Positions 4,132 through 53,438 of a stretch of 64,000 nucleotides of DNA are shown one piece after another (the stretch's first letter is position 1; the number at the start of each line of letters is the position of its first letter). The notes beneath the pieces were generated by a model. It had not been told where the DNA came from. It made no database searches and saw nothing but the letters and a program-made list of their open reading frames with translations. The position numbers and the translations under genes are program-made. The DNA comes from Nitrospirota bacterium (GTDB lineage Bacteria > NPL-UPA2 > JAADIA01). Location: positions 1-64,000 of the forward strand of contig JAADIA010000079.1 of assembly GCA_013151555.1 (NCBI GenBank), read 5' to 3'.

Positions 4132-4192
4132 TTAACCACAGATTATCGCAAGATTAAATTTAATTCTTATCTGTGTAAATCTGGTGTTAATC
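4132..4192. repeat. word-repeat inverted element (ccacagatt type)
   Basis: Spacer between the PEPCK-like gene and aspC. The left arm (aaccacagattatcgcaagatta) and right arm (taattcttatctgtgtaaatctggtg) are imperfectly complementary around a very short AT-rich centre. It belongs to the window-wide class of degenerate intergenic hairpins. Confidence 0.6.
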
Positions 4193-4282
4193 TCGGGGTT
4201 CATATCTTTTGATTTTTGGAGTTTTATTTTTGTATCTTTAATCCATGTCTATCAGGGGCTAAATATTTTTTGGAGATGAATC

Positions 4283-5476
4283 ATGTCTTTATCAGGGAGA
4301 GCTTCTTTAATCAGTCCTTCACCTACTTTGGCCATAACGGCTAAAGCGAAAGCGATGAAAGCACAGGGTATTGATATAATTGGATTTGGGGCGGGAGAAC
4401 CGGATTTTGATACGCCGGAGCACATTAAAGAAGAAGCCCGGAAAGCTCTTCAAGAGGGTTTTACTAAATATACCCCTGTCTCGGGGATTGAGCCGTTAAA
4501 GAAAGCAATTTGTAAGAAGCTTAAAAAGGATAACGGGTTGAACTACGATCCGGCACAGATAATCGTTTCCTGTGGAGCGAAACATTCTTTATACAATGCT
4601 ATCCAAATTATTTGTGAAGAGGGAGATGAAGTTATCCTGCCTTCACCTTATTGGGTGAGTTATCCGGAACAGATAAAATTGTCGGGGGCAAGACCCGTGA
4701 TAGTAGAAACCCGTGAGGCAGAGGGATTTAAACTCGGGCCGGAAAAGTTTTTAAAAGAGATAACTTCTCAAACGAAACTTTTGATCCTGAACAGTCCTAA
4801 CAATCCTACGGGTGCTGTCTACTCCCGGGATGAGTTGCTGGCTCTTGCCGAGATTGCTATGGAGAAGAAGATTTACGTTATTTCCGATGAAATATATGAA
4901 AAGATAACTTACGATAAGGTAAAACATATCAGCATTGCTTCTTTAAGTCCCCGGATGCAGGATTTAACCGTGGTAGTAAATGGCGTATCCAAAGCATATT
5001 CCATGACTGGTTGGAGGATAGGCTATGCTGCCGGAAATAAAGAGATTATCGCGGCTATGTCCCGGCTGCAAAGTCATAGCACTTCCAATCCTGATTCTAT
5101 CGCTCAGAGGGCGGCTGGGGAAGCTATTGAGGGAACTCAGGAGCCTCTTAAGGAAATGGTGGCTGAGTTCGAAAAGCGAAGGGATTATCTCGGGGAGAGA
5201 CTGAATAACCTGAAAGGTTTTTCCTGTCAGCAACCTCAAGGTGCTTTTTATGCTTTTCCCAATATCTCGGGAGTGCTGGGAAAATTTTTCCGGGGTCGGA
5301 AGATAGAAGATTCTTCTTCTCTGACAGGTTTGCTCCTGGATGAGGCAAGGGTAGCTGTTATTCCCGGGTCGGCCTTTGGACAGGATAATTACCTCAGGTT
5401 TTCTTATGCAACTTCCATGGAGAATATTAGCAAAGGGCTTGACCGGATAGAAGACGTGGTGAACAAGATAAATTAG
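4283..5476 (+). CDS. aspC: class I aminotransferase, aspartate aminotransferase type (AAT Ib)
   Basis: 397 aa, the standard length for PLP fold-type I aspartate aminotransferases. Visible motifs are GFGAGEPDFDTPEHI near 35-49, the cofactor-binding SCGAKHSLYNA (about 96-106), NSPNNPTG (about 171-178), SDEIYEKITY, the Schiff-base Lys in NGVSKAYSMTGWRIGY (about 233-248), and the C-terminal RFSYATS with the substrate-carboxylate Arg. It should interconvert aspartate and oxaloacetate with glutamate/2-oxoglutarate. Lying just after a PEPCK-like gene, it fits handling of oxaloacetate. Related prephenate aminotransferases share these motifs, so exact specificity is inferred. ATG 4283 has tggaga upstream. 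Confidence 0.88.
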   Translation: MSLSGRASLISPSPTLAITAKAKAMKAQGIDIIGFGAGEPDFDTPEHIKEEARKALQEGFTKYTPVSGIEPLKKAICKKLKKDNGLNYDPAQIIVSCGAKHSLYNAIQIICEEGDEVILPSPYWVSYPEQIKLSGARPVIVETREAEGFKLGPEKFLKEITSQTKLLILNSPNNPTGAVYSRDELLALAEIAMEKKIYVISDEIYEKITYDKVKHISIASLSPRMQDLTVVVNGVSKAYSMTGWRIGYAAGNKEIIAAMSRLQSHSTSNPDSIAQRAAGEAIEGTQEPLKEMVAEFEKRRDYLGERLNNLKGFSCQQPQGAFYAFPNISGVLGKFFRGRKIEDSSSLTGLLLDEARVAVIPGSAFGQDNYLRFSYATSMENISKGLDRIEDVVNKIN

Positions 5477-5510
5477 ACCAGGGACTGAAGAATAAGAAAA
5501 AAGCTGTATA

Positions 5511-5745
5511 GGACGCAGATAAACGCAGATTTAAAGGATTAAAAACACAAGACAACTTTATAATAGTTTCAGATTTTACTCCCTCCTGAGGCGGACAGGA
5601 ATTATCAGCAGGGTGAGTTTTAAGAATTAGGAAAAATAAAAAGATTAAACCTTAATTCTTAGTTTATATAAATATTGTCCCGGTAATTTATACTTTGGGT
5701 TCCGGATTTTTAATTATCTGTATCTATCTGCGAATATCTGCGTCC
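5511..5745. repeat. nested word-repeat inverted elements in the aspC-purC gap
   Basis: The 338-bp gap has no gene. An outer pair combines ggacgcagataaacgcagat (5511-5530) with its complement atctgcgaatatctgcgtcc (near 5726-5745). Inside lies a second pair (taagaattag about 5622 with cttaattctta about 5651). A further right-arm-like string, gtgtcctctgtggt, follows at about 5776. These are copies of the intergenic class seen across the window, here apparently stacked. Confidence 0.7.
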
Positions 5746-5814
5746 AAAAAAGAAAGTTTTTATTGTGTTTTTTTGTGTCCTCTGTGGTAACGAAGTTTTC
5801 TTGGAGAAAGAACG

Positions 5815-6711
5815 GTGGAAAGCGAAGTTATATTAAGTACGGATTTAGCGGATGTAAAACTTTTTAAAAAAGGGAAGGTGCGGGATATCTATGACCTCGG
5901 GGATGAGTTTCTCATAGTAGCTACCGATAGGATATCCGCCTTTGATGTTATCCTACCCAACGGTATCCCTTGTAAAGGAAGAGTCTTGACCAAACTGTCG
6001 GAATTCTGGTTTGATTTCACCGGCAATATCGTCAGGAATCATTTAGTTACTACCGACTTCGCTCTTTTTCCGGAAGAACTGCAAAAGTATGTATCTATCC
6101 TTGAGGGGCGGTCAATGTTGGTTAAGAAGGTGGAAACGGTGCCGGTTGAATGTGTAGTCCGGGGATACTTAGCCGGGTCCGGATGGAAGGAATATAGAGA
6201 GAAAGGTTCCATCTGCGGGATCAGTTTACCCCCCGGCCTCAGGGAGGCGGAGAAGTTACCTCAGCCGATATTTACTCCTTCTACCAAAGCCGACTCTGGG
6301 CATGACCTGAATATAACCGAGGAAGAGATGAGAGGATTAGTGGGAGCAAAAGTGGCGGAGGAGGTAAAGAAGAAAAGCCTGGAGATTTATAAAGTAGCCG
6401 ATGAATATGCGGAATCTCGAGGCTTAATTATCTCCGACACCAAATTCGAGTTCGGATTTGTTCGCAATGAAGAGCTCATTCTTATAGATGAAATTCTTAC
6501 TCCGGATTCCTCGCGTTTTTGGGATAAAAACGATTACTGTTTGGGACAATCACCCAAAAATTTTGATAAGCAATTCGTGCGCGATTATTTAGAAACTGTG
6601 AATTGGGATAAGACTCCTCCCGCTCCTTCCCTTCCTCAGGATATTGTCTGGAAGACCAGCGAAAAATATAAGGAAGCCTATAAGAGGCTTACCGGCAAGA
6701 TGATTGTATAG
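5815..6711 (+). CDS. purC: phosphoribosylaminoimidazole-succinocarboxamide synthase (SAICAR synthetase)
   Basis: 298 aa, start GTG 5815 with ggaga 8 nt upstream. It catalyses the ATP-dependent joining of aspartate to CAIR in de novo purine synthesis. Clear family motifs are KKGKVRDIYD (about 18-27), the ATP/Mg-site DRISAFDV (about 40-47), VECVVRGYLAGSGWKEY, FTPSTKADSGHD, SDTKFEFG and the metal-binding DEILTPDSSRFW. The length matches the longer PurC form rather than the 235-aa E. coli form. No other pur genes flank it. It is followed by a kinase gene after 47 nt. Confidence 0.95.
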   Translation: MESEVILSTDLADVKLFKKGKVRDIYDLGDEFLIVATDRISAFDVILPNGIPCKGRVLTKLSEFWFDFTGNIVRNHLVTTDFALFPEELQKYVSILEGRSMLVKKVETVPVECVVRGYLAGSGWKEYREKGSICGISLPPGLREAEKLPQPIFTPSTKADSGHDLNITEEEMRGLVGAKVAEEVKKKSLEIYKVADEYAESRGLIISDTKFEFGFVRNEELILIDEILTPDSSRFWDKNDYCLGQSPKNFDKQFVRDYLETVNWDKTPPAPSLPQDIVWKTSEKYKEAYKRLTGKMIV

Positions 6712-6758
6712 CCGGCATTAAGAAGGTGTTCCAAACTGCTGCCAGGTAGGGTTGAAAA

Positions 6759-8084
6759 ATGCTGATGCGGCGGCCCGTGAGGGTTATTCTCTATATTATC
6801 TTTGCCACCGTCTTGATTGCAGTTCTCTTCGTTAACCTCTCCCATAAAAGAGCAAATATCGAGAGAATTATTCAACAAGAAGGTTTATCTTTGGGAAGCA
6901 TGTACGCCGTTGCCCGGGAAACCCGCAATGAAGCTATCATAACTGCGGTTATTATCTTTATCCTGGGGATAACCGCTCTCAGCTTACTGCTCATTTATGA
7001 GCAATATCGTTCTGCCCGGAGGAGTTTGAGCGCGGTGGAAAGCCTTTCCTCAAATGTTCTCCGAAGCATAACCCGGGGGGTGATCGTCGTTGACTTAGAG
7101 GGAAAAATATCCAGCCTCAATAAGGCCGCTGAGACCATCCTTAATTTGAAAGGCCGGAATTTATCCGGTACCCCTTTCCGGGAAATCTGGAATAAGGATG
7201 ACCGGATAAGGGTTATCCTGGAGAAGGTTCTGGAGGATAAAGAGCTTTCCGGAGACCAGGATATTGATTATTATGTGGAGGGAAAAGGGAGACTATCGCT
7301 TCGTATTGATACTACCTTTCTCGAAGACGATGAAGGCAAGACGGTTGGAATAGTAATCCTTATCAAAGACCTTACTGAAGCTAAGCAACTGGAAACACAG
7401 ATGAGGAGAGCGGACAAGTTAGCTTCGCTGGGACGTTTGGCAGCCGGCATCGCTCACGAGATAAAGAATCCTTTAAGCGCTATGTCCATAAACCACCAAT
7501 TATTGGAGGAGGAAGTTTTTTCCTCATCTTCTCTTTCCCGGAAAAGATTATTGAACTACTTGAACATCGTCGGGACGGAAACCAAACGTTTAGAGGGTAT
7601 CGTCCAGAATTTTCTCCGCTTTGCTAAACCTCCTCCCCTGGAATTGAGTCAGGTGAATATTAACCGAGTTCTTGATGGAGTTCTGGCTCTGATAGGGCAG
7701 GAAGCTGTGGAAGAAGGGATTAAGATATCTAAGAATTATCATGAAGATTTGCCCCGGGTTCAGGGAGATAAGGAACAACTAAGCCAGGCTTTCTTGAATA
7801 TAGTTATTAATTCCCTTCAGGCGATGGCGGGGGGAGGGCAATTGACTATTAGAACAGCAAAGGGACCGCGACATATCGAATTAGAAATTTCCGATACGGG
7901 TCGAGGCATTGCTCTTCAGGACCAGGAGAAGATTTTTGAGCTTTACTTCACTACTAAGGAGGGGGGAACGGGACTGGGATTGCCCATAACCCAGCGTATT
8001 ATTCAAGAACATCGGGGATGGATAGGGATAGAAAGCAAACCGGGAGAAGGAACTAAGTTCAGGGTTAACCTTCCGCTGATATAG
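6759..8084 (+). CDS. PAS-containing membrane histidine kinase (NtrB-like)
   Basis: 441 aa. Two membrane helices (about 8-27 and 61-80) enclose a short extracytoplasmic loop of about 30 residues. A PAS domain follows (about 95-205, VIVVDLEGKISSLNKAAE). The HisKA box GIAHEIKNPLS puts the phosphorylated His at about 233. The HATPase_c domain has the N box (NIVINSLQAM), G1 (DTGRGI) and G2 (GGTGLGLPITQ). It should phosphorylate the NtrC-type regulator that begins 10 nt downstream. The loop is too small to name a ligand. The signal is unknown. Confidence 0.9.
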   Translation: MLMRRPVRVILYIIFATVLIAVLFVNLSHKRANIERIIQQEGLSLGSMYAVARETRNEAIITAVIIFILGITALSLLLIYEQYRSARRSLSAVESLSSNVLRSITRGVIVVDLEGKISSLNKAAETILNLKGRNLSGTPFREIWNKDDRIRVILEKVLEDKELSGDQDIDYYVEGKGRLSLRIDTTFLEDDEGKTVGIVILIKDLTEAKQLETQMRRADKLASLGRLAAGIAHEIKNPLSAMSINHQLLEEEVFSSSSLSRKRLLNYLNIVGTETKRLEGIVQNFLRFAKPPPLELSQVNINRVLDGVLALIGQEAVEEGIKISKNYHEDLPRVQGDKEQLSQAFLNIVINSLQAMAGGGQLTIRTAKGPRHIELEISDTGRGIALQDQEKIFELYFTTKEGGTGLGLPITQRIIQEHRGWIGIESKPGEGTKFRVNLPLI

Positions 8085-8094
8085 GCAAAAGATC

Positions 8095-9450
8095 ATGAAG
8101 ACAGAGAAAATTCTGGTCGTTGATGACGAAATAAATATTGCCCGGGGAATTTGTGAAGCGCTGGGCAAAGAAGGTTATCGAACCTTATCAACATCCAATG
8201 GGTTGAAGGCTTTGGAGGAAGTAAGAGAAGACTTTTTCCATCTCATCATTGCCGATGTAAAAATGCCGGGGATGAGCGGTTTGGAATTTCTCCGTCAGGT
8301 TAAGCGGGAGTGTCCGGAGACAATGGTGGTTATCCTTACTGCTTATGGGACCATCGAGACGGCTGTGGAGGCGATGCGGGAAGGAGCCTATGATTATCTT
8401 TCCAAGCCTATTGACATCAAAAGGCTGAGGGCTCTGGTGGAGAAAGCCCTGGAAAAACAAAGGTTAATCCTGGAGAATCAAATTCTCCGCCAGAAACTGG
8501 AAGGTCGAACCCGGTTCGATAAGATAGTGGGAAAAGGTGAGAAAATAAGGGAAATTTACCGGTTGGTCGAACGGGTGGCAGATACCAAATCTACTGTCCT
8601 CATCCAGGGGGAGAGTGGAACCGGGAAGGAATTGATTGCCCGGGCTATTCATGAGCATAGTTCCCGTTGCCGTAAGCCTTTCATCACCTTGAACTGTGCT
8701 GCCTTACCCGAAAACCTTCTGGAGTCGGAGCTCTTCGGTCACGAGAAAGGAGCCTTCACGGGAGCTCTAGCCAGGAAAACAGGCCGGTTTGAGGAGGCAG
8801 AAGGGGGGACCCTTTTTTTAGATGAAGTGGGAGGGATGAGCCCTAAGATGCAGATGGACCTGTTAAGAGTAGTAGAAGAGCGAAGGTTGCGAAGGGTAGG
8901 AGGCTCAGAGATGATTGAAGTAGATGCCCGTCTCATTGCAGCCACTAACACTGACCTAAAGAAAGCTGTGGAGAACGGTTCTTTCCGAAAAGACCTTTAT
9001 TACCGTTTAAACGTTATTCCTATCTTACTTCCTCCTTTACGGGAACGGAAAGAGGATATTCCCACCCTGGCAAAAGTTTTCTTAGCGGAGTTCAATAAGG
9101 AAAATAATAAAGATGTGAAAATAATCTCTCCCCAGGCGATGGAGGCCATGGTGAATTATCATTGGCCGGGGAATATCAGGGAGTTGAAGAACGTCATGGA
9201 GAGAGCGATCATCCTGGCTCCCGGAGATAATATACTGTCTGAATATCTACCCTCGGAAATCCAGGAGAAAATAGGTCAGCCGGGGCGGGTTTCTCTTGCC
9301 CTGGGCACGACTCTTAAAGAAGCAGAGAAAAAACTTATCGAACAAACCTTGAAGGAAATAACCTCTCATCGGGAGGAAGCCGCGAGGCTCTTGGGAATTA
9401 GCGTTCGTTCTTTACACTATAAAATGAAGGAATACGGGATTGAATATTAG
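8095..9450 (+). CDS. NtrC-family sigma54-dependent response regulator
   Basis: 451 aa. The receiver domain has acidic residues near 10-12 and the phospho-acceptor Asp at about 54 (IIADVKMPG). The AAA+ domain has Walker A GESGTGKE (172-179), the sigma54-contact loop GAFTGA (219-224), a Walker B LFLDEV segment and an Arg finger region. The C-terminal Fis-type HTH ends REEAARLLGISVRSLHYKMKEY. It should activate sigma54 promoters when phosphorylated by the kinase encoded just upstream. I saw no convincing -24/-12 promoter in the window, so targets are unknown. Confidence 0.93.
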   Translation: MKTEKILVVDDEINIARGICEALGKEGYRTLSTSNGLKALEEVREDFFHLIIADVKMPGMSGLEFLRQVKRECPETMVVILTAYGTIETAVEAMREGAYDYLSKPIDIKRLRALVEKALEKQRLILENQILRQKLEGRTRFDKIVGKGEKIREIYRLVERVADTKSTVLIQGESGTGKELIARAIHEHSSRCRKPFITLNCAALPENLLESELFGHEKGAFTGALARKTGRFEEAEGGTLFLDEVGGMSPKMQMDLLRVVEERRLRRVGGSEMIEVDARLIAATNTDLKKAVENGSFRKDLYYRLNVIPILLPPLRERKEDIPTLAKVFLAEFNKENNKDVKIISPQAMEAMVNYHWPGNIRELKNVMERAIILAPGDNILSEYLPSEIQEKIGQPGRVSLALGTTLKEAEKKLIEQTLKEITSHREEAARLLGISVRSLHYKMKEYGIEY

Positions 9451-9644: not shown

Positions 9645-9650
9645 GCTCAC

Positions 9651-10772: not shown

Positions 10773-10780
10773 CGAAGGCT

Positions 10781-10848: not shown

Positions 10849-10875
10849 TTCAAGTTACGACCGAAGGGAGTTGAT

Positions 10876-11786: not shown

Positions 11787-12215
11787 ATGTCTAAAGTCAA
11801 GGATTGCTTAAAAGAGTTGAAATTTGATGATAAGGGCCTGATTCCTGTTGTCATTCAGGAGGTAGAAACCAACGAGGTTCTCATGCTGGCTTATATGAAT
11901 GAAACCTCTCTTTCGGCTACGCTGGAAACGGGAAGGACGCATTTCTGGAGCCGGTCGAGGGGGAAGTTATGGAAAAAAGGAGAGGTTTCCGGTTGCGAAC
12001 AGATCGTTCACGAAATTTTTGTTGATTGCGATGAAGATAGTCTTCTAATCAAGGTCCATCAGAAGGGCGGAGCCTGTCATACCGGTTATAAATCCTGTTT
12101 CTATCGAAAGATTAATGTCAAGCAGGATATGATTGAGATCGTTAGCCGCAAGGTTTTTCATCCTCATGAGAAGTATGGCAAGAAGGAAAAGCAAGAAGAA
12201 AATTTGACAGGATGA
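11787..12215 (+). CDS. hisI: phosphoribosyl-AMP cyclohydrolase
   Basis: 142 aa from ATG 11787, preceded by gaggagaa. An in-frame TTG at 11760 overlaps the upstream stop but has no ribosome site. HisI opens the purine ring of PR-AMP in histidine synthesis. Visible motifs are [30 protein letters not shown], the metal-binding [12 protein letters not shown], and the zinc Cys pair in CHTGYKSCF. It lacks a HisE fusion, and no other his genes are nearby. The extra C-terminal tail ends in acaggatga, so its last codons come from an intergenic repeat word. Confidence 0.93.
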
Positions 12216-12258
12216 ACAGGATAGACCGGGCTGAATACTGAGCGCTGAATTCTGAATT
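12198..12258. repeat. single-arm word repeats (acaggat and ctgaattctg types)
   Basis: gacaggatgaacaggatagacc runs across the hisI stop codon and is followed by gctgaatactgagcgctgaattctgaatta. Both strings are the word-like periodic sequences of the window-wide class. No complementary right arm is visible here, so this is a half element. Confidence 0.5.
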
Positions 12259-14460: not shown

Positions 14461-14476
14461 AAGATGAGGAAAATTT

Positions 14477-14608
14477 GACAGGATTAACAGGATAGACAGG
14501 ATAAAATTATTACCTGAATAAGCAAATGAAACAAATTAAAATTAAATTATTACAGGTTTGTCTTTTAGTGGCTCTTTAAAAAATCTTGTTAATCCTGTTT
14601 ATCCTGTC
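14477..14608. repeat. word-repeat inverted element (acaggat type)
   Basis: Left arm: three 9-nt words, acaggatta/acaggatag/acaggataa (14478-14504). Right arm: atcttgttaatcctgtttatcctgtc (14583-14608), their complement. The arms are about 80 nt apart with AT-rich DNA between. It separates yggS from proC. Related copies are at 21877-21981 and 48288-48436. Confidence 0.8.
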
Positions 14609-14640
14609 AAAAGAAGTAAAGTAACTAAGTGAGGTATTTT

Positions 14641-18005: not shown

Positions 18006-18102
18006 AACCACAGAGACACGGAAGAGCGGAAACACGGAAAAAAGAATTCAGAATGGGAAGAAGTAAAGAGTTGTAAATTAAATTTCCGTGTTTCCGTGGT
18101 TA
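18006..18102. repeat. word-repeat inverted element (cacggaa type)
   Basis: Left arm accacagagacacggaagag...cggaaacacggaaa (18007-18040). Right arm tttccgtgtttccgtggt (18083-18100). Fourteen bases (cggaaacacggaaa) are exactly complementary. It sits between punA and ileS. Confidence 0.75.
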
Positions 18103-21837: not shown

Positions 21838-22102
21838 CCACAGAGGACGTAGAGAAACAAGACCTGAAACTATTCTGACAGGATTTACAGGATGAAAACT
21901 CGATTGAGTCGACTCTGTTGACAGGATTAAAATTTAAGTATAGAAAAAACAAAAAATCTTGTTAATCCTGTTCATCCCGTCAAAAATTTTGTAGGATTTT
22001 CTTCGCATCTTCATTCTTTTATATCTTCATGATTATCAGTTATCTTAAACTTCTGTGTTCATCATCAGTGTCTGATTAGTTTTTCCTTTCTCTGTAGTTG
22101 CC
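21837..22102. repeat. stacked word-repeat inverted elements (ccacagag outside, acaggat inside)
   Basis: The outer pair is ccacagaggacgtagagaaa (from 21839) with tttctctgtagttg (near 22087-22100). The inner pair is gacaggatttacaggat (21877-21893) and another acaggattaaaatt (about 21921) facing atcttgttaatcctgttcatcccgtc (21957-21981). The remaining 100 nt are AT-rich without a gene. Nesting of two word families suggests insertion of one element into another. Confidence 0.7.
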
Positions 22103-26220: not shown

Positions 26221-26350
26221 AAATCCCAAACTAAAAATCCCAATACTACCAAATAAATCCCAATACCACCAATTTTTGGGGTTTGGTAATACTTGGATTT
26301 TTGGTTTACGGCGCAAGACGTTTGGGTTTGGTAACTATTGGGATTTAGGA
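26221..26350. repeat. word-repeat inverted element (cccaataccacca type)
   Basis: Left arm: four words built on aatcccaa/cccaatac (26222-26270). Right arm: tttggtaatacttgg...tttgggtttggtaactattgggatt (26277-26347), complementary to them. It lies inside the pyr operon between pyrC and pyrK, so it must be transcribed if the operon is continuous. Confidence 0.75.
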
Positions 26351-28111: not shown

Positions 28112-28124
28112 AACGATTGGAGAA

Positions 28125-28260
28125 GGCACAAAGTGACAAAGGCACATAGGCACAAAGGCACAGAGTAACAAAGGCACAAAGGAAAAACAAGAACCAACAC
28201 TTTTGTACTTTTTTTGGTTTTTAAACTTAGTGCCTCTGTGCCTTAGTGCCTCTGTGCCTG
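28125..28260. repeat. word-repeat inverted element (ggcacaaa type)
   Basis: Left arm: seven tandem 8-nt variants of ggcacaaa/ggcacaga (28125-28183). Right arm: cttagtgcctctgtgccttagtgcctctgtgcc (28227-28259), their complement. It sits between pyrD and pyrF within the operon. This is the clearest tandem example in the window. Confidence 0.85.
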
Positions 28261-30858: not shown

Positions 30859-31446
30859 ATGCTCAAAGGCAAGGAAATAATTATCGGAGTAACGGGGAGT
30901 ATTGCGGCTTATAAATCGGCGGAAATCGTTAGGAGGTTGAAGAATGAAGGAGCCGAAGTGACCGTAATTATGACCGAAAAAGCTACCAAATTTATCACTC
31001 CTCTCACTTTGGAAACTCTTTCTCGAAACCCGGTTTATTGTTCTCTGTTTTCTGAGGAGCGAGAATGGGACCCTGCTCACATTTCTCTGGCCGGGAGAGC
31101 GGATCTGATTTTGATAGCGCCGGCTACTGCCAATCTCATTGGCAAATTAGCTGCCGGGATAGCTGATGACCTTCTGACAACAACGGTGATGACGGTTAAG
31201 ACAATGGTTATTCTTGCTCCGGCTATGAATACCCGGATGTATGAAAATCCTATTCTTCAGGAGAATCTGAACAGACTAAAAAGTTTCGGGTATGAAATTA
31301 TCGAACCCGAATACGGTTTTCTTGCCTGCGGCGAAAAAGGGAAAGGGCGGCTGGCTGATGTTGATACCATTCTTAAAATGGTGGAAGACAATTTTAACAG
31401 AAGACAGAAGACAGAGAATGGAGAACAGAAAACAGAGAGAATTTGA
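30859..31446 (+). CDS. coaC: phosphopantothenoylcysteine decarboxylase (CoaC part of a split coaBC)
   Basis: 195 aa from ATG 30859. Flavoprotein fold with GVTGSIAAYKSAEIVRRL near the N-terminus, the catalytic His in AHISLAGRADLILIAPATAN, the substrate clamp PAMNTRMYENP and the active-site Cys in FLACGEKGKGRLAD. In most bacteria this domain is fused to CoaB. Here the frame ends after ILKMVEDNF with a 16-residue tail (NRRQKTENGEQKTERI) encoded by an acagaagac-type repeat arm. The fused protein appears to have been cut by the repeat. Confidence 0.92.
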   Translation: MLKGKEIIIGVTGSIAAYKSAEIVRRLKNEGAEVTVIMTEKATKFITPLTLETLSRNPVYCSLFSEEREWDPAHISLAGRADLILIAPATANLIGKLAAGIADDLLTTTVMTVKTMVILAPAMNTRMYENPILQENLNRLKSFGYEIIEPEYGFLACGEKGKGRLADVDTILKMVEDNFNRRQKTENGEQKTERI

Positions 31447-31483
31447 CGCCTGTCTTCTGGTTTCTGGCAACTGTCCTCTCTGG
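31396..31483. repeat. word-repeat inverted element splitting coaBC (acagaagac type)
   Basis: Left arm aacagaagacagaagacaga...gaacagaaaacagagag (31396-31439), read as the last codons of coaC. Right arm ctgtcttctggtttctggcaactgtcctctctgg (31450-31483). The coaC stop lies between the arms. An aggag ribosome site for coaB follows immediately at 31486. The element sits exactly at the CoaC/CoaB domain linker. Confidence 0.8.
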
Positions 31484-38282: not shown

Positions 38283-38356
38283 GGGCGGTTAGCTCAGCTG
38301 GTTAGAGTGCCACGTTGACATCGTGGAAGTCACTGGTTCAAGTCCAGTACCGCCCA
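38283..38356 (+). tRNA. tRNA-Val (anticodon GAC)
   Basis: Acceptor gggcggt/accgccc, D-arm gctcagctggttagagc-like, anticodon stem ccacg/cgtgg with loop ttgacat (GAC), T-arm ctggttcaagtccag, discriminator A. CCA is not encoded. Confidence 0.93.
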
Positions 38357-38362: not shown

Positions 38363-38450
38363 GACAGAAAACAGAGGACAGATATCAGAAGACAGATGGA
38401 TAAAAACAGATGTTTAATATAAGGTTGTTTCTGTTATCTGTCTTCTGTTT
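38363..38450. repeat. word-repeat inverted element (acagaagac type)
   Basis: Left arm gacagaaaacagaggacaga...agaagacagatgg (38363-38399). Right arm tttctgttatctgtcttctg (38428-38447). The same word family as the coaBC splitter and the rpsP-trmD element. It lies between tRNA-Val and thrS. Confidence 0.75.
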
Positions 38451-38461: not shown

Positions 38462-40228
38462 ATGATGAATTCTAAAGATAAGCATAAGGCTGATTCAAAA
38501 GATAACCTGGAAACTCTGAGGCATAGTGCCGCTCATATCCTGGCCCAGGCAGTGAAGGAGCTTTATCCGGAAACCAAGTTGGGTATTGGCCCTGCCATTG
38601 CCGATGGTTTCTATTATGATTTTGAGAGAAAAACTCCTTTTACTCTTGAAGATTTGGCAAAGATTGAAGAGAGGATGCAGAGAATTGTGAAGGCTGCCCT
38701 TCCTTTTCTGAAAAGTGTTCTTTCTAAGCAAGATGCTCTGGAAATATTTTCTGAATTGGAGGAGCCATATAAGTTAGAACTTCTGGAAGATCTGGAGAAT
38801 GATGAAGTAACTATCTACCGGCAGGGAAATTTTACTGACCTCTGTAGGGGGCCGCATCTGGCGAATACCGGAGAGCTGAAATCTTTCAAGCTCCTTAGCA
38901 TAGCCGGAGCCTACTGGCGGGGTAGCGAAAAGAATCCTATGCTCCAGCGAATATACGGGACGGCCTTTCCCGGGGAAGTGGAGTTAGCAGAATATCTGCA
39001 GAATCTTGAAGAAGCTAAGAAGAGGGACCATCGCAGGTTAGGGAAAGAATTGGATCTCTTTAGCCTGGAGGAGGATGTTGGTCCCGGCTTGGTCCTCTGG
39101 CACCCTCGCGGGGCGATGTTGCGGAAGGTCATCGAGGACTTCTGGCGGGATGAGCATTTGAAACGGGGGTACCAACTTGTCTATACTCCTCATATCGCCG
39201 GAGAGAATTTGTGGAAGGTAAGTGGACATCTTGACTATTTCAGGGAAATGATGTATCCTTCTATGAGAATGGACGAGCGGAACTATCTTCTCAAACCGAT
39301 GAATTGTCCCTTTCATATAAGAATTTATAAGCAGAAAGTTCGTAGTTATCGAGACCTCCCCATTCGTTATGCTGAGTTAGGAACAGTCTACCGCTATGAA
39401 CGTTCCGGGGTCCTGCATGGGTTGTTGAGGGTGCGAGGTTTTACTCAAGATGATGCCCATATTTTTTGTACTCCGGAGCAATTGTCCAAAGAAATTCTGA
39501 GCATTATCGATTTGATCCAGTTCATGTTGGAGGCTTTTGGTTATAAGGAGTTTCAGGTCGAGTTGAGTGTTCGCCATCCGGATAGAAGCGGTGATTATCT
39601 GGGAGATGATGAAGGCTGGGCTCGGGCGGAGGCAGCTTTAGTTGAATCTCTGGACAAGAGGAATCTCTCCTATACGGTAGGGGAAGGAGAAGCAACCTTC
39701 TATGGTCCTAAGATCGATATCAAGCTGGTTGATGCTCTGGGAAGAGGTTGGCAAGGTCCAACAATCCAGGTAGATTTCAACCTTCCGGGACGTCTTAATA
39801 TTACTTATGTGGGAGATGATGGAAAGAAACATCCGGTGATGATGCTCCATCGAACCGTACTGGGAACGATGGAACGGTTTGTCGGAGGTTTGATAGAGCA
39901 TTATGTCGGAGCATTTCCTTCCTGGCTGGCTCCTCTTCAGATCAGGGTGGTGACGATCAACCAGGGGCAGGAAGCTTATGCAAAGAAGGTTCTGCAGGAA
40001 CTGCAGGAAAAAGGATTGCGGGCTGATCTGGATGCGGGAAAGGAAACGATTAGTTATAAGATTGGGAAGGCTGAACGGGAAAAAATTCCTTATATTTTAG
40101 TAGCGGGAGATAGGGAAGTAGAAGCGGGCACTGTTTCGGTAAGAAAGAGAAAGGATCGTCATCAAAAAGTAATGAAGGTTGAGGAGTTTATTGACAGGAT
40201 TCAGGAAGAAATAAAAAACCGTGAATAG
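38462..40228 (+). CDS. thrS: threonyl-tRNA synthetase lacking the TGS domain
   Basis: 588 aa. It starts directly in the N2 editing domain (RHSAAHILAQAVKELYP, about 20-36; YYDF), so the about 60-residue TGS domain of the E. coli-type enzyme is absent, as in some other bacteria. The editing-site LCRGPHL, catalytic-core zinc ligand Cys in LKPMNCPFH, motif 2 YRYERSGVLHGLLRVRGFTQDDAHIF, motif 3 MLHRTVLGTMERF and the anticodon domain (QIRVVTINQGQ) are all present. It heads thrS-infC-rpmI-rplT. Confidence 0.96.
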   Translation: MMNSKDKHKADSKDNLETLRHSAAHILAQAVKELYPETKLGIGPAIADGFYYDFERKTPFTLEDLAKIEERMQRIVKAALPFLKSVLSKQDALEIFSELEEPYKLELLEDLENDEVTIYRQGNFTDLCRGPHLANTGELKSFKLLSIAGAYWRGSEKNPMLQRIYGTAFPGEVELAEYLQNLEEAKKRDHRRLGKELDLFSLEEDVGPGLVLWHPRGAMLRKVIEDFWRDEHLKRGYQLVYTPHIAGENLWKVSGHLDYFREMMYPSMRMDERNYLLKPMNCPFHIRIYKQKVRSYRDLPIRYAELGTVYRYERSGVLHGLLRVRGFTQDDAHIFCTPEQLSKEILSIIDLIQFMLEAFGYKEFQVELSVRHPDRSGDYLGDDEGWARAEAALVESLDKRNLSYTVGEGEATFYGPKIDIKLVDALGRGWQGPTIQVDFNLPGRLNITYVGDDGKKHPVMMLHRTVLGTMERFVGGLIEHYVGAFPSWLAPLQIRVVTINQGQEAYAKKVLQELQEKGLRADLDAGKETISYKIGKAEREKIPYILVAGDREVEAGTVSVRKRKDRHQKVMKVEEFIDRIQEEIKNRE

Positions 40229-40230
40229 GA

Positions 40231-40288
40231 TTAAGAATTAAGAATTAAGAAGAAAAACTTAATACTTACAACTTACAACTTAATTCTG
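40231..40288. repeat. word-repeat inverted element (gaattaag type)
   Basis: Left arm ttaagaattaagaattaaga. Right arm acttaatacttacaacttacaact then taattct. The arms are almost adjacent. It lies directly before the infC ribosome site, so its fold could touch infC initiation. Confidence 0.65.
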
Positions 40289-41100: not shown

Positions 41101-41280
41101 AGATGGTTGAAAGTTAAGGTTGTAAAGTCTAAAGTAAAAAAACTTTTGGAAGAAGATATTTGTAAGTTTGAGATATAAGGTTTTTAAGTATAAGCCCCGG
41201 GTTGTCTAAGATTTAGGCAAGGTTTTTATTGTTTTCTTGCTTTTAACTTTCGACCTTCAATTTTAAACTATCAACTGTCT
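41101..41280. repeat. word-repeat inverted element (gaaagttaag type)
   Basis: Left arm gatggttgaaagttaaggtt and gtaaagtctaaagt (41102-41135). Right arm cttttaactttcgaccttca and attttaaactatcaactgtc (41240-41279). The 100 nt between are AT-rich with a short ccccgggg-like palindrome near 41195. It separates rpmI from rplT, which are normally only tens of bases apart. Confidence 0.65.
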
Positions 41281-46433: not shown

Positions 46434-46522
46434 TAAGACTATAGACTATAGACCATAGACTAAACGAGGGGAAAAGGGATGGTGAAAAGTCTAAAGTCTG
46501 ATGTCTATGGTCTATTGTCTGA
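46434..46522. repeat. word-repeat inverted element (atagacc type)
   Basis: Left arm agactatagactatagacca and tagactaa (46437-46463). Right arm agtctaaagtctgatgtcta and tggtctattgtct (46488-46520). The unit is 7-8 nt. It separates pheS from pheT, which must be made in equal amounts. Confidence 0.8.
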
Positions 46523-48206: not shown

Positions 48207-48285
48207 AAGGCGGGATTGCCCAGATTAGGACAAAGATTTCGCTCTGGTGATTGGCTATTAGTTTAATGCTAAGGAAAATCAAAAA

Positions 48286-48438
48286 CGGACAGGATTAACA
48301 GGATGTACAGGATAATTTTCTTAAAGAATTTTAGTTGGGGAAACTTTACAAAACTTTTTGAATTTTGTAAAATCAGCTTTTATCCTTTGATTTAATTAAA
48401 AGAATAAAAATCCGGTAAATCCAGTAAATCCTGTCAAT
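48286..48438. repeat. word-repeat inverted element (acaggat type)
   Basis: Left arm ggacaggattaacaggatgt then acaggataa (48287-48315). Right arm tccggtaaatccagtaaatc then ctgtc (48411-48435). About 95 nt apart. It occupies most of the 275-bp pheT to zapB-like gap; the rest has no gene. Confidence 0.8.
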
Positions 48439-48481
48439 TTTAGAGTTGCCGCTGTAGACGGCCTAAGTTTGGAGAGAAGTC

Positions 48482-48941: not shown

Positions 48942-48947
48942 TTTTTC

Positions 48948-48977
48948 TTGACTCTGCTCTCTGGACTGGGGTAATAT
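48948..48977 (+). promoter_or_regulatory. promoter downstream of zapA
   Basis: TTGACT (48948-48953), 18-nt spacer, TAATAT (48972-48977). Start near 48984, at the head of RNA candidate B, so B may be a separate transcript or the leader of ffh. Confidence 0.5.
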
Positions 48978-48983
48978 ATAAGT

Positions 48984-49110
48984 GGCCTGTCTAAGTCAGC
49001 TTTACTCAGGCCTTGCTTGAAATTGGAACAGGGTGGGAAAGCTCCCCCCTGCAATTTTTAATTAAGATGCTAAGTGTTTTAGTTATATGGATTTTTGGGT
49101 GGATTAGGCG
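48984..49110 (+). ncRNA. structured RNA candidate, copy B
   Basis: Hairpin 1: ggcctg/caggcc. Hairpin 2: aaattg-gaa-caggg(t)ggga / tccc(c)ccctg-caattt. Hairpin 3: aattaagat/gttttagtt (9 pairs counting G-U), loop gctaagt. The tail ends tttttgggtggatta. The 47 nt from aattaagat to ggatta match copy A (33042-33088) without gaps at about 74%. The 5' flank also shares gctt..aattggaa. It lies where 6S RNA lies in many genomes (after zapA), but three short hairpins are not the 6S rod. It could be the ffh leader. Confidence 0.5.
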
Positions 49111-49157
49111 AGTTAAATTTATGAATTGCAAATTTTACGGTTACGAACGGAGCGAGT

Positions 49158-50480
49158 ATGTTTGAAGGTATATCTGTAAAGTTTGGAACTATCTTTAAGA
49201 AGCTCAGGGGGAGAGGGAAGCTCTCCGAGAAAAATATAGAGGAATCCCTGAAGGAAATTCGTTTGGCCTTACTGGAAGCCGACGTCAATTATAAGGTGGT
49301 TAAGAAATTTATTCATGAGGTCAAAGAGAGAGCAATTGGAGAAGCCGTCTTACGGAACATTACTCCCGGGCAGCAGGTAGTCAAGGTAATTCATGAAGAA
49401 CTGACCAGAGTGATGGGTCCCGAGAATAATAAAATAAATATTTCTTCCCGTCCTCCGACCATAATTGTTTTAGTTGGTCTTCAAGGAAGCGGAAAGACAA
49501 CTACCTGTGCCAAGTTGGGCGGCTATCTTAAGGAGAAAGGATATCATCCTCTTCTGGTGGCTACAGATATTCAGCGTCCGGCGGCCAGGAAACAGTTGGA
49601 GATCCTGGGAAAAGAATTGGGTCTTCCTGTTTTCGGCGATGGTCGCGACCCTTTGGATATCTGCCGGGGAGCAAAAGACCTGGCAATTTCGGAAGGAAGA
49701 GAAGTGCTCTTAGTGGATACTGCCGGTCGGCTTCACATTGATGAGAAACTTATGAAAGAGCTCAAGCAACTGAAGAAGGTATTCCAACCGGAAGAGGTCT
49801 TGTTGGTAGCCGATGCGATGACGGGACAAGATGCTGTTAACATAGCTCAGGCTTTTGAAGGAACCCTGGGTATCTCCGGAGTGGTTTTAACTAAACTTGA
49901 TGGTGATGCCCGGGGAGGGGCAGCTCTTTCTATAAAGGCGGTAACTAATAAGCCGATAAAATTTATCGGTGTGGGAGAAAAACTGGATGCTTTTCAGCCT
50001 TTCTGTCCGGATAGGATAGCTTCTCGTATTCTGGGTATGGGTGATGTTTTAACTCTGGTGGAGAAAGCGGAGAAATTAGCGAGCGAAGAAGATGCCAGGC
50101 AATTGGAGAAGAAGCTTTTAAAAGATGCTTTCACCTTTGAAGATTTTCTCTCTCAGCTTGAAAGAATTAAGAAAATGGGCTCTCTTCAGGACATATTAGG
50201 GTTGGTTCCCGGCCTTTCTTTACCTAACCAGGCGCTTTCCTTTGATGACCGTCAAGTAGTTAGAACTGAGGCCATGATACAGTCAATGACCAGGGAGGAA
50301 AGAAAGGTTCCTCATACTATCGATGGAAGTAGACGCCGGAGAATTGCTCAGGGAAGTGGAACGAGCGTTGAGGAAGTGAACCGCCTCCTGAAACAATTTA
50401 CTCAGATGAAGAAGATGATGAAGAAGATGGGAAAAATGGGGAAGTTCGGCAAGGAACGATTTTTGAATTTTGGAACGTGA
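49158..50480 (+). CDS. ffh: signal recognition particle protein Ffh (SRP54)
   Basis: 440 aa. The N domain (1-90) is followed by the G domain with P-loop GLQGSGKTTTCAKLG (about 107-121), ATDIQRPAARKQL, DTAGRLHID and TKLDGDARGGAALS. The Met-rich M domain ends QFTQMKKMMKKMGKMGK. It binds 4.5S RNA and signal peptides for co-translational targeting. ATG 49158 has ggagcg upstream; RNA candidate B lies in its leader region. Confidence 0.97.
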   Translation: MFEGISVKFGTIFKKLRGRGKLSEKNIEESLKEIRLALLEADVNYKVVKKFIHEVKERAIGEAVLRNITPGQQVVKVIHEELTRVMGPENNKINISSRPPTIIVLVGLQGSGKTTTCAKLGGYLKEKGYHPLLVATDIQRPAARKQLEILGKELGLPVFGDGRDPLDICRGAKDLAISEGREVLLVDTAGRLHIDEKLMKELKQLKKVFQPEEVLLVADAMTGQDAVNIAQAFEGTLGISGVVLTKLDGDARGGAALSIKAVTNKPIKFIGVGEKLDAFQPFCPDRIASRILGMGDVLTLVEKAEKLASEEDARQLEKKLLKDAFTFEDFLSQLERIKKMGSLQDILGLVPGLSLPNQALSFDDRQVVRTEAMIQSMTREERKVPHTIDGSRRRRIAQGSGTSVEEVNRLLKQFTQMKKMMKKMGKMGKFGKERFLNFGT

Positions 50481-50560
50481 GATAAACAAAACATTTGAAA
50501 CATCTTGGTATTTTCGGGGAAATGGTAACTGTAAATTTTAATAGCATAGGGAGGAAGGAG

Positions 50561-50896
50561 ATGAAATTGAGAAAGAGTTTTCTTTGTTTGGTCGTGGGAG
50601 GCTTGGCCGCAGTTATATTTGCAACCTTGGCACCGGAAGTTCAGGCAGCTAATCCTTTTAATAAAGTGGGACGAGGGTTGGGAAATATAGTCATTGCTCC
50701 TGTGGAGATACCTGTGTCCATGGTCAGCGAGGCTAAGAAGAATCCCTTATTGGGTTTGGTAATAGGACCGATAATCGGAGCAGTCAATTGTGTGACCAGG
50801 GCCACTGCCGGAATCGTTGAGCTGGTTACTTTTCCAGTCCCTCCTTACGATCAACCCCTTTATGAGAAAGATCTTGGGGAGACCGTCTGGGAGTGA
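50561..50896 (+). CDS. exported TIGR04073-like small protein (exosortase-system associated)
   Basis: 111 aa from ATG 50561, which has ggaggaaggag directly upstream; the TTG at 50495 lacks one. A signal peptide spans about 1-29 (ending EVQA). The mature protein (NPFNKVGRGLGNIVIAPVEIPVSM, GAVNCVTRATAGIVELVTFPVPP) looks like the small exported family named for co-occurrence with exosortases. Its function is unknown. A hairpin (tgcct-gccc/gggc-aggca, 50900-50924) follows without a T-run. Confidence 0.7.
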   Translation: MKLRKSFLCLVVGGLAAVIFATLAPEVQAANPFNKVGRGLGNIVIAPVEIPVSMVSEAKKNPLLGLVIGPIIGAVNCVTRATAGIVELVTFPVPPYDQPLYEKDLGETVWE

Positions 50897-50926
50897 ATCT
50901 GCCTCGCCCTAAAGGGCAAGGCATCA

Positions 50927-51041
50927 TTGTAAATTGAAGATTGGAAATTGGAAATTTTAAAATGGAAGAGAAGAAATGAGATTCAATCTTTTTTGATTTA
51001 TTTCAATAAGTTTAAAATTTACAATTCTCAATTTACAATTC
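50927..51041. repeat. word-repeat inverted element (gattggaaattg type)
   Basis: Left arm ttgtaaattgaagattggaa and attggaaattttaaa (50928-50962). Right arm tttaaaatttacaattctca and atttacaatt (51011-51040). It ends with gcgaagcgag just before the rpsP ribosome site. Confidence 0.75.
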
Positions 51042-51075
51042 GAGCGAAGCGAGTTAACTCAGAGGAGGTGAATCA

Positions 51076-51363
51076 GTGGCTGTAGTTATTAGATTGAAAA
51101 GAATGGGAGCGAAGAAAAGACCTTTTTATCGATTGATCGTAGCTGATTCCCGTATGCCCCGGGATGGCCGGTTTATCGAGACTATTGGTCTATATAATCC
51201 TTTAGAAAATCCTTCTAAGATTTCTGTTAGTCAGGAAAAAGCTCTTTATTGGCTGAAACAGGGAGCGAAACCATCTCCGACAGCAAAACAGATTCTGAGG
51301 AAGAGCGGAGTTTGGGAGAAGTTTAAACCACAGAAAGTACAGAAGACAGAGAATAAAGAATAG
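51076..51363 (+). CDS. rpsP: 30S ribosomal protein S16 (bS16)
   Basis: 95 aa, GTG 51076 with gaggaggtg upstream. [33 protein letters not shown] and [13 protein letters not shown] are diagnostic. The C-terminal tail after WEKFKPQ (KVQKTENKE) is encoded by the left arm of an acagaagac repeat. rimM, usually next, is absent; trmD follows after that repeat. Confidence 0.96.
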
Positions 51364-51464
51364 AAGACAGAGAACAGATGACAGAAATAATCTTATATTG
51401 AACGGCTGTTTTTATACGTCTGTCTCTTGATTTCTGACATCTGATGTCTGTTTCCTCTGTGGTT
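51326..51464. repeat. word-repeat inverted element (acagaagac type) at the rpsP 3' end
   Basis: Left arm aaccacagaaagtacagaag then acagagaat...agaagacagagaacagatga (51326-51384), encoding the last residues of S16. Right arm tgtctcttgatttctgacat and ctgatgtctgtttcctctgtggtt (51421-51464). The ends aaccacaga/tctgtggtt are exactly complementary. Confidence 0.8.
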
Positions 51465-51480
51465 AAGGAAATTTCTTGCT

Positions 51481-52239
51481 ATGAGGATTGATATCTTAAC
51501 TCTATTTCCCGGAATGTTTGCTGGGCCCTTTAAAGAATCTATAATCGGAAGAGCCGGGAGCAAGGGAATAGTCCGGATTGAGATTCATGACCTCCGGAAC
51601 TTTACCCGGGATCGGCATCGTAAAGCGGACGATCGCCCTTATGGCGGTGGTCCGGGTATGGTCATGAAACCGGAGCCGGTCTTTGAAGCTGTGGAACATG
51701 TAATTGGCCGAACAACCTCTCTCTTGAGGGACCCTCAGGTGAAGGTTATCCTTATGTCTCCCCAGGGAAAGACTTTTACTCAGAAGAAAGCTGAAGAACT
51801 AATTGGAAAAGAACATCTTGTTTTTATCTGCGGGCATTATGAAGGGATTGATGAACGAGTAGGAGAAAGGTTGGCTACCGATGAGATATCCATTGGCGAC
51901 TATGTTCTCACAGGAGGAGAATTAGCCGCTATGGTGGTCGTGGATGCAGTTGTTCGTCTTCTTCCCGGAGTTTTAGGAGCGAAAGAGTCAGCGGCGGAAG
52001 ACTCTTTTTCAGAAGAACTTCTTGATTGTCCTCATTATACCCGGCCGGAAGTCTATCGGGAAATGAAAGTTCCGGAAGTTCTCCTTTCCGGCAACCATGA
52101 GGAGATTAAGAAATGGCGTCGGCAAGAAGCTCTCTGGAAGACTTTTTTAAAAAGGCCGGATTTGATTGAGAAAGCCGAGCTTACAGAAAAGGATAGGGGA
52201 AATCTCAGGAAATTTAAAGAAAAACAAAAAAATGGGTGA
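51481..52239 (+). CDS. trmD: tRNA (guanine-N1)-methyltransferase
   Basis: 252 aa. SPOUT fold; the trefoil-knot SAM site shows in [13 protein letters not shown] (about 117-129) and [32 protein letters not shown]. Start motif [13 protein letters not shown]. It makes m1G37 in tRNAs reading C/A/U-starting codons to hold frame. Standard place between rpsP and rplS. Confidence 0.97.
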
Positions 52240-52291
52240 TGGGTTCCTGTTTGCCGGTTACCAATCATCAGACCAGAAGTAGGGGATAGCA

Positions 52292-52666
52292 ATGGATATT
52301 AAACAATATGTGGAGAAAGAGTGCCTGAAGGAAAAGCTGCCCCACGTTCAGGTAGGGGATACAGTTAAAGTTGAAATAGTAGTAGTGGAAGGAGAAAGGA
52401 AAAGGAATCAGATATTTGAAGGAGTTGTCATTCGGAAAAGAGGCCAGGGGATAAGTAAAACTTTTACCCTAAGACGCGTCTCATATGGGGAAGGAATAGA
52501 AAGAACCTTTCCCTTTCATTCCCCTTCCTTAGGAAAGATAGTAGTAATCGGACAAGGAAAAATTCGCCGGAGTAAACTCTATTACTTAAGGGAAAGGTCG
52601 GGGAAGGCCGCTCGTCTTGCTAAGAAGAAGAATAATAACAAAGGACAAAGAGAAAGAGAAGCTTAG
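52292..52666 (+). CDS. rplS: 50S ribosomal protein L19 (bL19)
   Basis: 124 aa. [49 protein letters not shown] and the basic C-terminus are diagnostic. ATG 52292 has gtagggga upstream. Confidence 0.96.
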
Positions 52667-52676
52667 ACTCTCCCGG

Positions 52677-53312
52677 ATGGTCCGTTACGAAAGGGGGCTC
52701 TGGAGAAAGGGTTTATCTCGAGTCGCTGGTGTAGATGAAGCCGGTCGAGGTCCTTTAGCCGGTCCTGTAGTAGCTGCTGCTGTCATTCTCCCCCTAGACA
52801 TATTCCTGCCCGGCCTTGATGATTCCAAAAAACTTAGTCCGCAAAAGAGAGAAGAGATTTTTTTTAAAATTTGGAGGGAAGCCGGAGCGATAGGAGTAGG
52901 AATAGTCAGTGAGATTGTTATTGACCGGATCAACATTCTTCAAGCCACCTATTTAGCTATGCGCCAGGCAGTAACGAAACTTCCGGTTTCTCCTGATTGC
53001 CTTTTAGTTGATGGAATGACTACCATCCCGGACCTGAATACTTTTCAGGTAGCTATCGTGAAAGGAGACTCTCTAAGCATCTCCGTCGCGGCTGCTTCTA
53101 TTGTGGCGAAAGTAACCAGGGATCGAATCATGGTAGAGAAAGACAAACACTTTCCTCAATATGGATTTGCTAAGCATAAAGGATATGGAACGAAAGTTCA
53201 TCTGAAAGCTTTAGATAAATATGGAGCTTGTTCTTTACATCGCCGGTCCTTCAAGCCCGTGAAAGAGCGCTTGAATCATAAAGTTGAAAAAATCGCCGGT
53301 GAATACAGATAG
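52677..53312 (+). CDS. rnhB: ribonuclease HII
   Basis: 211 aa from ATG 52677, 10 nt after the rplS stop; a TTG at 52617 lies inside rplS and adds non-family residues. The first catalytic Asp-Glu pair is in AGVDEAGRGPLAGPVVAAAVIL (about 19-40). DDSKKLSPQKRE, VDGMT, VKGDSLSISVAAASIVAKVTRDR and FAKHKGYGTKVH complete the active site. It cuts RNA in RNA/DNA hybrids and removes single ribonucleotides. Confidence 0.95.
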   Translation: MVRYERGLWRKGLSRVAGVDEAGRGPLAGPVVAAAVILPLDIFLPGLDDSKKLSPQKREEIFFKIWREAGAIGVGIVSEIVIDRINILQATYLAMRQAVTKLPVSPDCLLVDGMTTIPDLNTFQVAIVKGDSLSISVAAASIVAKVTRDRIMVEKDKHFPQYGFAKHKGYGTKVHLKALDKYGACSLHRRSFKPVKERLNHKVEKIAGEYR

Positions 53313-53337
53313 ATACAAAAAAGCACAACCTTTAGCT

Positions 53338-53438
53338 AATTACCGCTGAGAACGCCGAGGTCGCCGAGATTACTTAATTTTAAAGATGATTTTCATTTTT
53401 TTATCTGCGCTCTCGGCGTTCTCAGCGGTGAAAATTAA
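53338..53438. repeat. word-repeat inverted element (gaacgccgag type)
   Basis: accgctgagaacgccgag (53342-53359) and its exact 18-nt complement ctcggcgttctcagcggt (53412-53429). Inner words gtcgccgaga/tctgcg extend the pairing. GC-rich, about 50 nt loop. It lies between rnhB and yraN and covers an upstream in-frame extension of yraN. Confidence 0.85.

Follow-up and report, generated by a model that had tools for sequence, protein, structure and literature searches.

A 64,000-nucleotide stretch of DNA from a Nitrospirota bacterium (hereafter the window; contig JAADIA010000079.1, positions 1 to 64,000, assembly GCA_013151555.1) contains intergenic hairpins whose two arms are arrays of short, degenerate tandem words. 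Here we describe these hairpins together with two families of small genes, called cargo below, that stand between arrays of the same design: GxxExxY (PDDEXK_3, PF13366) and a four-helix-bundle protein listed as "23S_rRNA_IVP" (IVP, PF05635). An Rfam search of the window returned four tRNAs only, with no rRNA and no family match at the word sites. PADLOC, a library of defence systems, gave no match in the window, and neither cargo family is in that library. The operon context of the sites was judged by adjacency to open reading frames (ORFs). Loci outside the window are given as L numbers and some genomes as G numbers.

Word arrays in the window

The window's 43 spacers of 40 nt or longer were each compared with their own reverse complement by gapped local alignment, and six dinucleotide-preserving shuffles per spacer, 258 in total, served as the control. 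The inverted-repeat score was 14-22 in 10 of the 43 spacers, while the best shuffle reached 13.5 and typical shuffle maxima were 8-11. The repeats are therefore real, and the chance origin that the preliminary description of this DNA had named as its refutation does not account for them. A second, independent repeat finder placed arms at 5504, 14474, 18027, 28140, 31398, 46443, 48273, 50926 and 53342. The arrays at 18007, 31397 and 53342 escaped the spacer scan because they overlap predicted ORF frames or lie between them. About 15-16 window sites are well supported as inverted tandem-word arrays. The preliminary description had counted about twenty, which is slightly high; the words and gaps it gave are correct, and the measured gaps are 4-195 nt.

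The tandem period splits the sites into two classes with no continuum between them, one of about 9 nt (8-10) and one of 7 nt (7/14). No strand is assigned to any of them, and each inverted-repeat score below is followed by its shuffle maximum. In the longer-period class, the word ACAGGATTA forms two gene-less elements of period 9, at 14474-14611 (arms 14474-14502 and 14583-14611; 19.0 against 10.5) and at 48286-48440 (arms 48286-48313 and 48410-48440; 20.0 against 10.5). The arms of the former are 90-94% identical to those of L136, a locus of the same genome whose loop contains GxxExxY remnants. The word GGCACAAAG builds a gene-less element of period 8 at 28124-28259 (arms 28124-28185 and 28214-28259; 22.0 against 8.0), and CGCAGAT one of period 10 at 5511-5745 (arms 5511-5530 and 5726-5745; 15.0 against 11.0), assigned to the 9/10-nt class. 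The gene-less element at 18007-18102 (arms about 18007-18040 and 18083-18102) has CACGGAA/CACAGAG words of period 8 and a 14-nt perfect core, and its word type also flanks GxxExxY genes in other genomes. Two further gene-less elements of period 9 have the words ACAGGATT(T)A, at 21876-21985 (arms 21876-21896 and 21962-21985; 11.5 against 10.5), and (A)CGCCGAG, at 53342-53429, where 26-nt arms (53342-53367 and 53404-53429) are 88% complementary. The element at 26228-26340, with the word ATCCCAATACC, arms from 26228 and 26282 and a score of 16.0 against 11.5, has a period of 9-10 and is of uncertain class.

The 7-nt class includes three gene-less elements with ACAGA-type words. One (ACAGAAG, period 7) lies at 31397-31480, with arms from 31397 and 31450, and was found by the independent repeat finder. 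Another ((G)ACAGA..., period 14/7), at 38363-38450 (arms 38363-38394 and 38426-38450; 17.5 against 8.0), directly follows tRNA-Val (38283-38356). The third (ACAGA(A)GA, period 14/7) occupies 51339-51460 (arms 51339-51388 and 51430-51460; 15.0 against 8.0). The remaining sites all have period 7. Two are gene-less, with the words ATAGACT at 46434-46522 (arms from 46434 and 46503; 15.5 against 9.0) and AATTGGA at 50926-51039 (arms 50926-50957 and 51008-51039; 18.0 against 10.0). An element at 41102-41272 (GTTGAAAGTTAAGGTTG; arms 41102-41143 and 41231-41272; 16.0 against 10.5) was absent from the preliminary list, and one at 40227-40287 (GAATTAA / TTAATTC) is clear in its tandem period and weak as an inverted repeat (9.0 against 9.0). 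Positions 4135-4217 (ACCACAGATTATCGCAAGATT ... AATCTGGTGTTAATC) may be a decayed copy, its score of 11.5 against 12.0 not being significant. We also noted a single ACAGGAT-type arm at 12200-12229, the partner arm of which is absent.

Small genes between the arrays

The ACAGGATTA word is widely spread. A 26-nt pattern of it, GACAGGATTAACAGGATNNACAGGAT, was found in at least 113 contigs from many bacterial phyla and from archaea. The bacterial hosts among the matches listed are Verrucomicrobia, Kiritimatiellae, Chloroflexi, Armatimonadota, Proteobacteria, Desulfobacteria, Bacteroidota, Planctomycetes, Nitrospinota and a Pelotomaculum, and the archaeal hosts among them are Methanoperedens/ANME (anaerobic methanotrophic archaea). 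Chance cannot be expected to give a 24-letter match, even in so large a collection. Carriage by phages was considered as well; the 26-mer occurs in only 16 viral contigs (IMG/VR). In the 1.81-Mb genome to which the window belongs, ACAGGATTAACAGGAT occurs 15 times, whereas its reversed control does not occur; the ACAGGATTA word is absent from the eight same-phylum genomes in which it was sought.

GxxExxY genes between the arms were first recognised in the loops of the cross-phylum copies L049, L094 and L126. A PF13366 profile search of the window's genome returned fragments only, either with internal deletions or as lone gene ends, and all of them lie inside or against word hairpins: L132, with ACCACGAGATTA words, and L134, L135 and L136, with ACAGGATTA words. 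A further GxxExxY fragment was found in the L003 hairpin of this genome with a profile built in this analysis (E 2e-9). The 7-nt arrays resemble 23S rRNA intervening sequences, and PF05635 genes were therefore predicted to be a second cargo. The window's genome has five such genes, three of which (L137, L140 and L141) are intact and stand directly between inverted 7-nt arrays. Ends that match those of a gene-bearing partner thus occur both in the same genome (L132-L136, L137, L140 and L141) and across genomes. The other two IVP genes, L138 and L139, are flanked by other repeat types, AACCGGAGCACTTATTAAC and TTCCGTCACGAAGTGACTA with small palindromes, respectively, perhaps further classes of ends.

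The association was measured in 34 word-bearing genomes, in which 65 GxxExxY and 72 IVP genes had enough flank, an inverted array being called at a score of at least 14 between the upstream and downstream flanks. Such arrays surround 53 of the GxxExxY genes and 59 of the IVP genes, whereas they were called at 1 of 221 neighbouring ORFs in the same loci and in 2% of mispaired flanks (Fisher p about 1e-45). PF13366 itself is present in 32 of the 34 genomes versus 3 of 14 control genomes. The arrays of the two families differ: the period is 8-10 in 45 of the 53 GxxExxY arrays, and 7, 8, 14 or 15 in 58 of the 59 IVP arrays. The two are also told apart by a k-mer classifier, with an area under the curve of 0.956 when whole genomes are held out; by itself it mis-assigns ACAGAAG words, and the period discriminates better. 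Many IVP-class words are locus-specific. In an unbiased scan of long-loop arrays, recognised cargo was found in only 5 of 19, because in many of these the paired arms belong to neighbouring elements or the enclosed genes are ordinary ones.

Two cassettes of unusual content were seen. At L069:7466-7987 (Methanoperedens) a 94-amino-acid ORF inside an inverted CGCGGAT/CGCAGAT array looks, by eye only, like an MNT-type nucleotidyltransferase and may represent a third cargo family. At L170:1480-2268, in an Anaerolineales genome, long inverted arrays surround a 263-amino-acid GxxExxY frame with two tandem PF13366 matches.

The GxxExxY proteins (TIGR04256 in NCBIfam) of many phyla conserve G-x-x-E-x-x-Y, D70, E80-x-K82 and Q94-x-x-x-Y98. 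A phmmer search by sequence found no relative in the PDB. An AlphaFold model (predicted local distance difference test score, 95) has as its best solved structures 4IC1 SSO0001, the Sulfolobus Cas4 protein, and then lambda exonuclease, at E about 2e-3, which is a statement at fold level. GxxExxY is thus a predicted PD-(D/E)XK nuclease of Cas4/lambda-exonuclease-like fold in which the D, ExK and QxxxY motifs are kept. We found no account of its biological role or mobility in the open-access literature. The other cargo family corresponds to TIGR02436, 'four helix bundle protein'; it has solved relatives in 2GSC and 2RLD and weaker matches to the model of Avd, a protein of diversity-generating retroelements (DGRs) (NF033474, E 3.6e-8). 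It is homologous both to Avd and to the protein encoded in 23S rRNA intervening sequences.

Words and proteins vary together. In cross-genome protein pairs of at least 55% identity, word similarity was 0.406 for GxxExxY against a permutation mean of 0.219, and 0.247 for IVP against 0.168, with none of 2000 permutations as high in either case. In the same pairs the 45 nt outside the arms were at random level (GxxExxY, 0.142 vs 0.134; IVP, 0.137 vs 0.141). Therefore the words drift with the protein lineage while the neighbouring DNA is unrelated. This explains a feature that the preliminary description had found odd, namely that the architecture is conserved and the sequence is not: every lineage of words goes with a cognate cargo protein of its own, and ACAGGATTA is identical across phyla.

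Published heptameric repeats gave a further test. In Xanthomonas, GGGAATC heptamers form many inverted pairs, generally without association with mobile elements (Rehm et al., PMC4692102). GGGAATC was predicted beforehand to flank an IVP gene. Among 369 sampled gammaproteobacterial genomes one has three tandem copies of this word, and that genome has a single IVP match, with an apparent frameshift, which lies between GGGAATC arrays upstream and GATTCCC arrays downstream; one blind test was thus passed. The TAACTGA heptamers of Beggiatoaceae, proposed as sites of a translational regulator (PMC4679880), resemble the arms of the IVP locus L201 (AACTGATAACTGA). The other loci searched contain no exact dimer of TAACTGA.

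Turnover at orthologous spacers

One orthologous spacer was traced in 36 Spirosoma genomes and was readable in 34, for which a tree of the flanking coding sequence (34 tips) was built. The spacer is empty (23-54 nt) or contains ACAGGATTA hairpins (60-195 nt), CACAGAG hairpins, CCGGGATT hairpins, others, or an IVP cassette of 498-583 nt with the gene between GGGAGGAAAGGG-type arrays. On the tree, at least 16 changes are required to account for these six states, and the state differs between sister species separated by about 0.1 substitutions (L286 vs L326; L282 vs L296). The IVP form could be ancestral with repeated loss, the direction of single changes not being fixed by the tree. At other Spirosoma sites, the L345 element is kept, L341 and L344 are replaced by an unrelated hairpin, and the L342 element is absent in G068 and G077, which gives two empty sites. 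In G068 the element L347 (there L370) has another hairpin nested inside the loop of its ACAGGATT pair. Among related species, then, the comparison that the preliminary description had proposed shows gain, loss, word swaps and covariation of the arms.

The covariation of the arms was seen in two ways. L347 has the same loop in G096 and G077, and the words of both arms have changed together (L347 vs L362). Among elements of the ACAGGATTA family, the fraction in which the inner word-spacers agree between the two arms is 0.55, versus 0.19 when shuffled. Complementarity of the arms is therefore maintained, whether by correction or by selection, and hairpin-templated correction may act in addition to mobility to keep them matched.

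Further hairpin arrangements were also seen. In Spirosoma G096, five dispersed copies (L341, L343, L344, L348 and L350) have common 27-nt arms, four identical and one with a single-base difference, and unrelated loops of 14-16 nt, as if arm and loop had separate histories. Other long hairpins, GGCGCGAGGCTCCAGCCTCG in L305 and L290 and GGTGTCGGATTCTCAAATCCGACA in L357 and L360, occupy the same hot-spot spacers of Spirosoma as the word elements. At L014:1499-1720 a CCACGGATT pair is nested in the loop of a ACAGGATTA pair.

Proposed word-ended mobile cassettes, rival explanations and known systems

We consider that the spacer hairpins are mostly the gene-less ends of small mobile word-ended cassettes of bacteria and some archaea, with a probability of roughly 80%. 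What was observed in its favour is the architecture, the association with genes, the covariation of words and protein, the spread, the gain, loss and replacement at orthologous spacers, and the internally deleted genes within hairpins. The preliminary description had offered three options, namely miniature elements, RNA-processing signals and a templated or slippage product; the first is supported by the existence of gene-bearing forms beside dispersed gene-less ones and by the turnover at orthologous spacers. In a complete cassette, of about 450-600 bp, 3-7 tandem near-copies of a short word form the left array; one small gene follows, and complementary words make up the right array. Period-9 words stand around GxxExxY and period-7/8 words around the four-helix-bundle protein. 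Plausibly, each cargo protein binds to the array of its own word and helps to copy both arrays of the pair into new spacers, GxxExxY by cutting or processing the ends and IVP by binding structured nucleic acid. The gene-less pairs may be deletion remnants, copies mobilised in trans, or both.

Several points weigh against this interpretation. Movement was not observed, and at the empty Spirosoma sites neither a target-site duplication nor an excision product was definable, the junctions being too diverged to align. The 34 genomes were selected for carrying the ACAGGATTA word, and about 18% of the cargo genes there have no detectable array. The two cargo families share the cassette architecture though they are unrelated, and neither is a known transposase. 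Their covariation with the words shows co-inheritance and not binding; recognition of the word by the protein is what we infer from it. Cargo remnants sought in the window's hairpin loops were not found (best hmm E > 1). The window copies all appear gene-less, and their putative tie to gene-bearing relatives is similarity of word, period and arm only. Near-perfect inverted arrays also surround ordinary-looking genes (L021:888-1592, L026:4006-4830 and L062:4077-4917). The enclosed ORFs there are acyltransferase-like, lipoprotein-like and that of a membrane protein, respectively, as if two elements formed a composite or a gene had been captured.

The words and their inverted copies might instead originate where they stand, through slippage during replication and template-switching at hairpins, as an immobile mutational by-product that GxxExxY and IVP genes tolerate or attract. 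Arms that match better within than between elements and can drift together, and the locus-specific words of the IVP class, would be expected from such a process; however, it does not predict an identical 26-nt pattern in many phyla and archaea, covariation with the enclosed protein across phyla, the rarity of such flanks at neighbouring ORFs, or Spirosoma spacers that switch among unrelated words and gene-bearing forms, and we regard it as unlikely. An RNA-level role, in which host selection maintains the arrays as RNase III or regulatory hairpins or translational elements and they are bound by the cargo proteins as host regulators, appears very unlikely. In its favour, the spacers that contain the hairpins are transcribed, RNase III excises the 23S rRNA intervening sequences from which the IVP family is known (PMC4990558), and the proposal for the TAACTGA heptamers points the same way. 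Yet sister species differ in whether a given spacer has an element, unrelated hairpins take the place of elements, the word is missing in the eight same-phylum relatives, the neighbouring genes have unrelated functions, and loops contain decayed gene fragments.

Two further routes involve a known enzyme supplied in trans. Because IVP proteins match the Avd model, such cassettes might move through RNA copied by a reverse transcriptase, as Avd assists that of DGRs; the GxxExxY class has no Avd-like protein, though, and we think this route very improbable. Mobility driven by a reverse transcriptase is also disfavoured by the lack of RVT_1 in the window's genome and in 9 of 25 other genomes, most of them with IVP genes and one of them a 9.1-Mb Spirosoma. 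The hairpins would be REPINs (repetitive extragenic palindromic doublets forming hairpins) moved by a RAYT (Y1) transposase if the two Y1_Tnp genes of the window's genome acted on them, and REPINs are likewise gene-less inverted pairs dispersed in spacers. The words have no common GTAG/GGAG-type head, however, and the genes they flank are GxxExxY and IVP, so that this origin is exceedingly unlikely. It was rejected when a complete RAYT, in L016, proved to lack word arrays (the L017 copy is cut by a contig end). Insertion into pre-existing palindromes was dropped as a general rule, the flank scores being 5.86 versus 5.45 in the control. Beside ACAGGATTA arms, extra TTTT/AAAA pairing exceeds composition-matched controls over about 3-5 nt only.

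If the hairpins are indeed remnants of mobile word-ended cassettes, a wider proposal may follow, which we put forward tentatively and doubt slightly more than we trust. There would be a class of bacterial and archaeal mobile elements without a known transposase, recombinase or reverse transcriptase, in which either a small Cas4-like nuclease or a four-helix protein like Avd recognises the 9- or 7-nt array that belongs to it and copies inverted arrays into new spacers by an undescribed hairpin mechanism, and many orphan short repeats would be its footprints. The cassette explanation itself offers one account for the heptamer repeats of Xanthomonas, of Beggiatoaceae and possibly of cyanobacteria, whose short tandemly repeated repetitive (STRR) sequences are heptameric, and for the origin of 23S rRNA intervening sequences. 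It covers as well two widespread small-protein families whose role is undescribed in the open-access literature searched, and it predicts from word and period which family stands between the arms. Should the cargo proteins themselves bring about the movement, the cassettes would be a mobile system of very small size that belongs to none of the known classes of transposase, and a candidate source of DNA-binding or nuclease modules specific for a word.

The cassettes resemble several known systems in part. GxxExxY has motifs and fold in common with the Cas4 and lambda-exonuclease nucleases and is a stand-alone protein of about 125 amino acids. DGRs with Avd differ in that the window's genome has no RVT_1, hence no co-resident reverse transcriptase. 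Like miniature inverted-repeat transposable elements (MITEs), the hairpins are small and dispersed, with inverted ends, and include internally deleted derivatives of a gene-bearing form; unlike MITEs, their cargo is TIGR04256 or TIGR02436 and not a transposase, and the end sequence varies between copies. The REPIN-RAYT system, reportedly described by Bertels and Rainey in 2011, shares the gene-less inverted pairs dispersed in spacers, a gene-bearing form with the same repeats, and ends that co-vary with the protein, whereas here there is no RAYT and the ends are arrays of 7- or 9-nt tandem words around GxxExxY or IVP. The 23S rRNA intervening sequences of Coxiella and Leptospira, of about 430 nt, have terminal inverted repeats and an S23p/four-helix-bundle ORF, and their mobility was already suspected (PMC4990558). 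The protein family and its position between inverted ends are the same in our 7-nt class, but those sequences are known only in 23S rRNA genes, whereas the present elements occupy ordinary spacers genome-wide and have tandem-word arms. The published heptameric repeats, which fit the 7-nt class only, share with it spacer-borne tandem arrays of degenerate 7-nt words, which often form inverted pairs and are common to distant phyla. They were described as orphans without a carrier, whereas here GGGAATC flanks an IVP gene.

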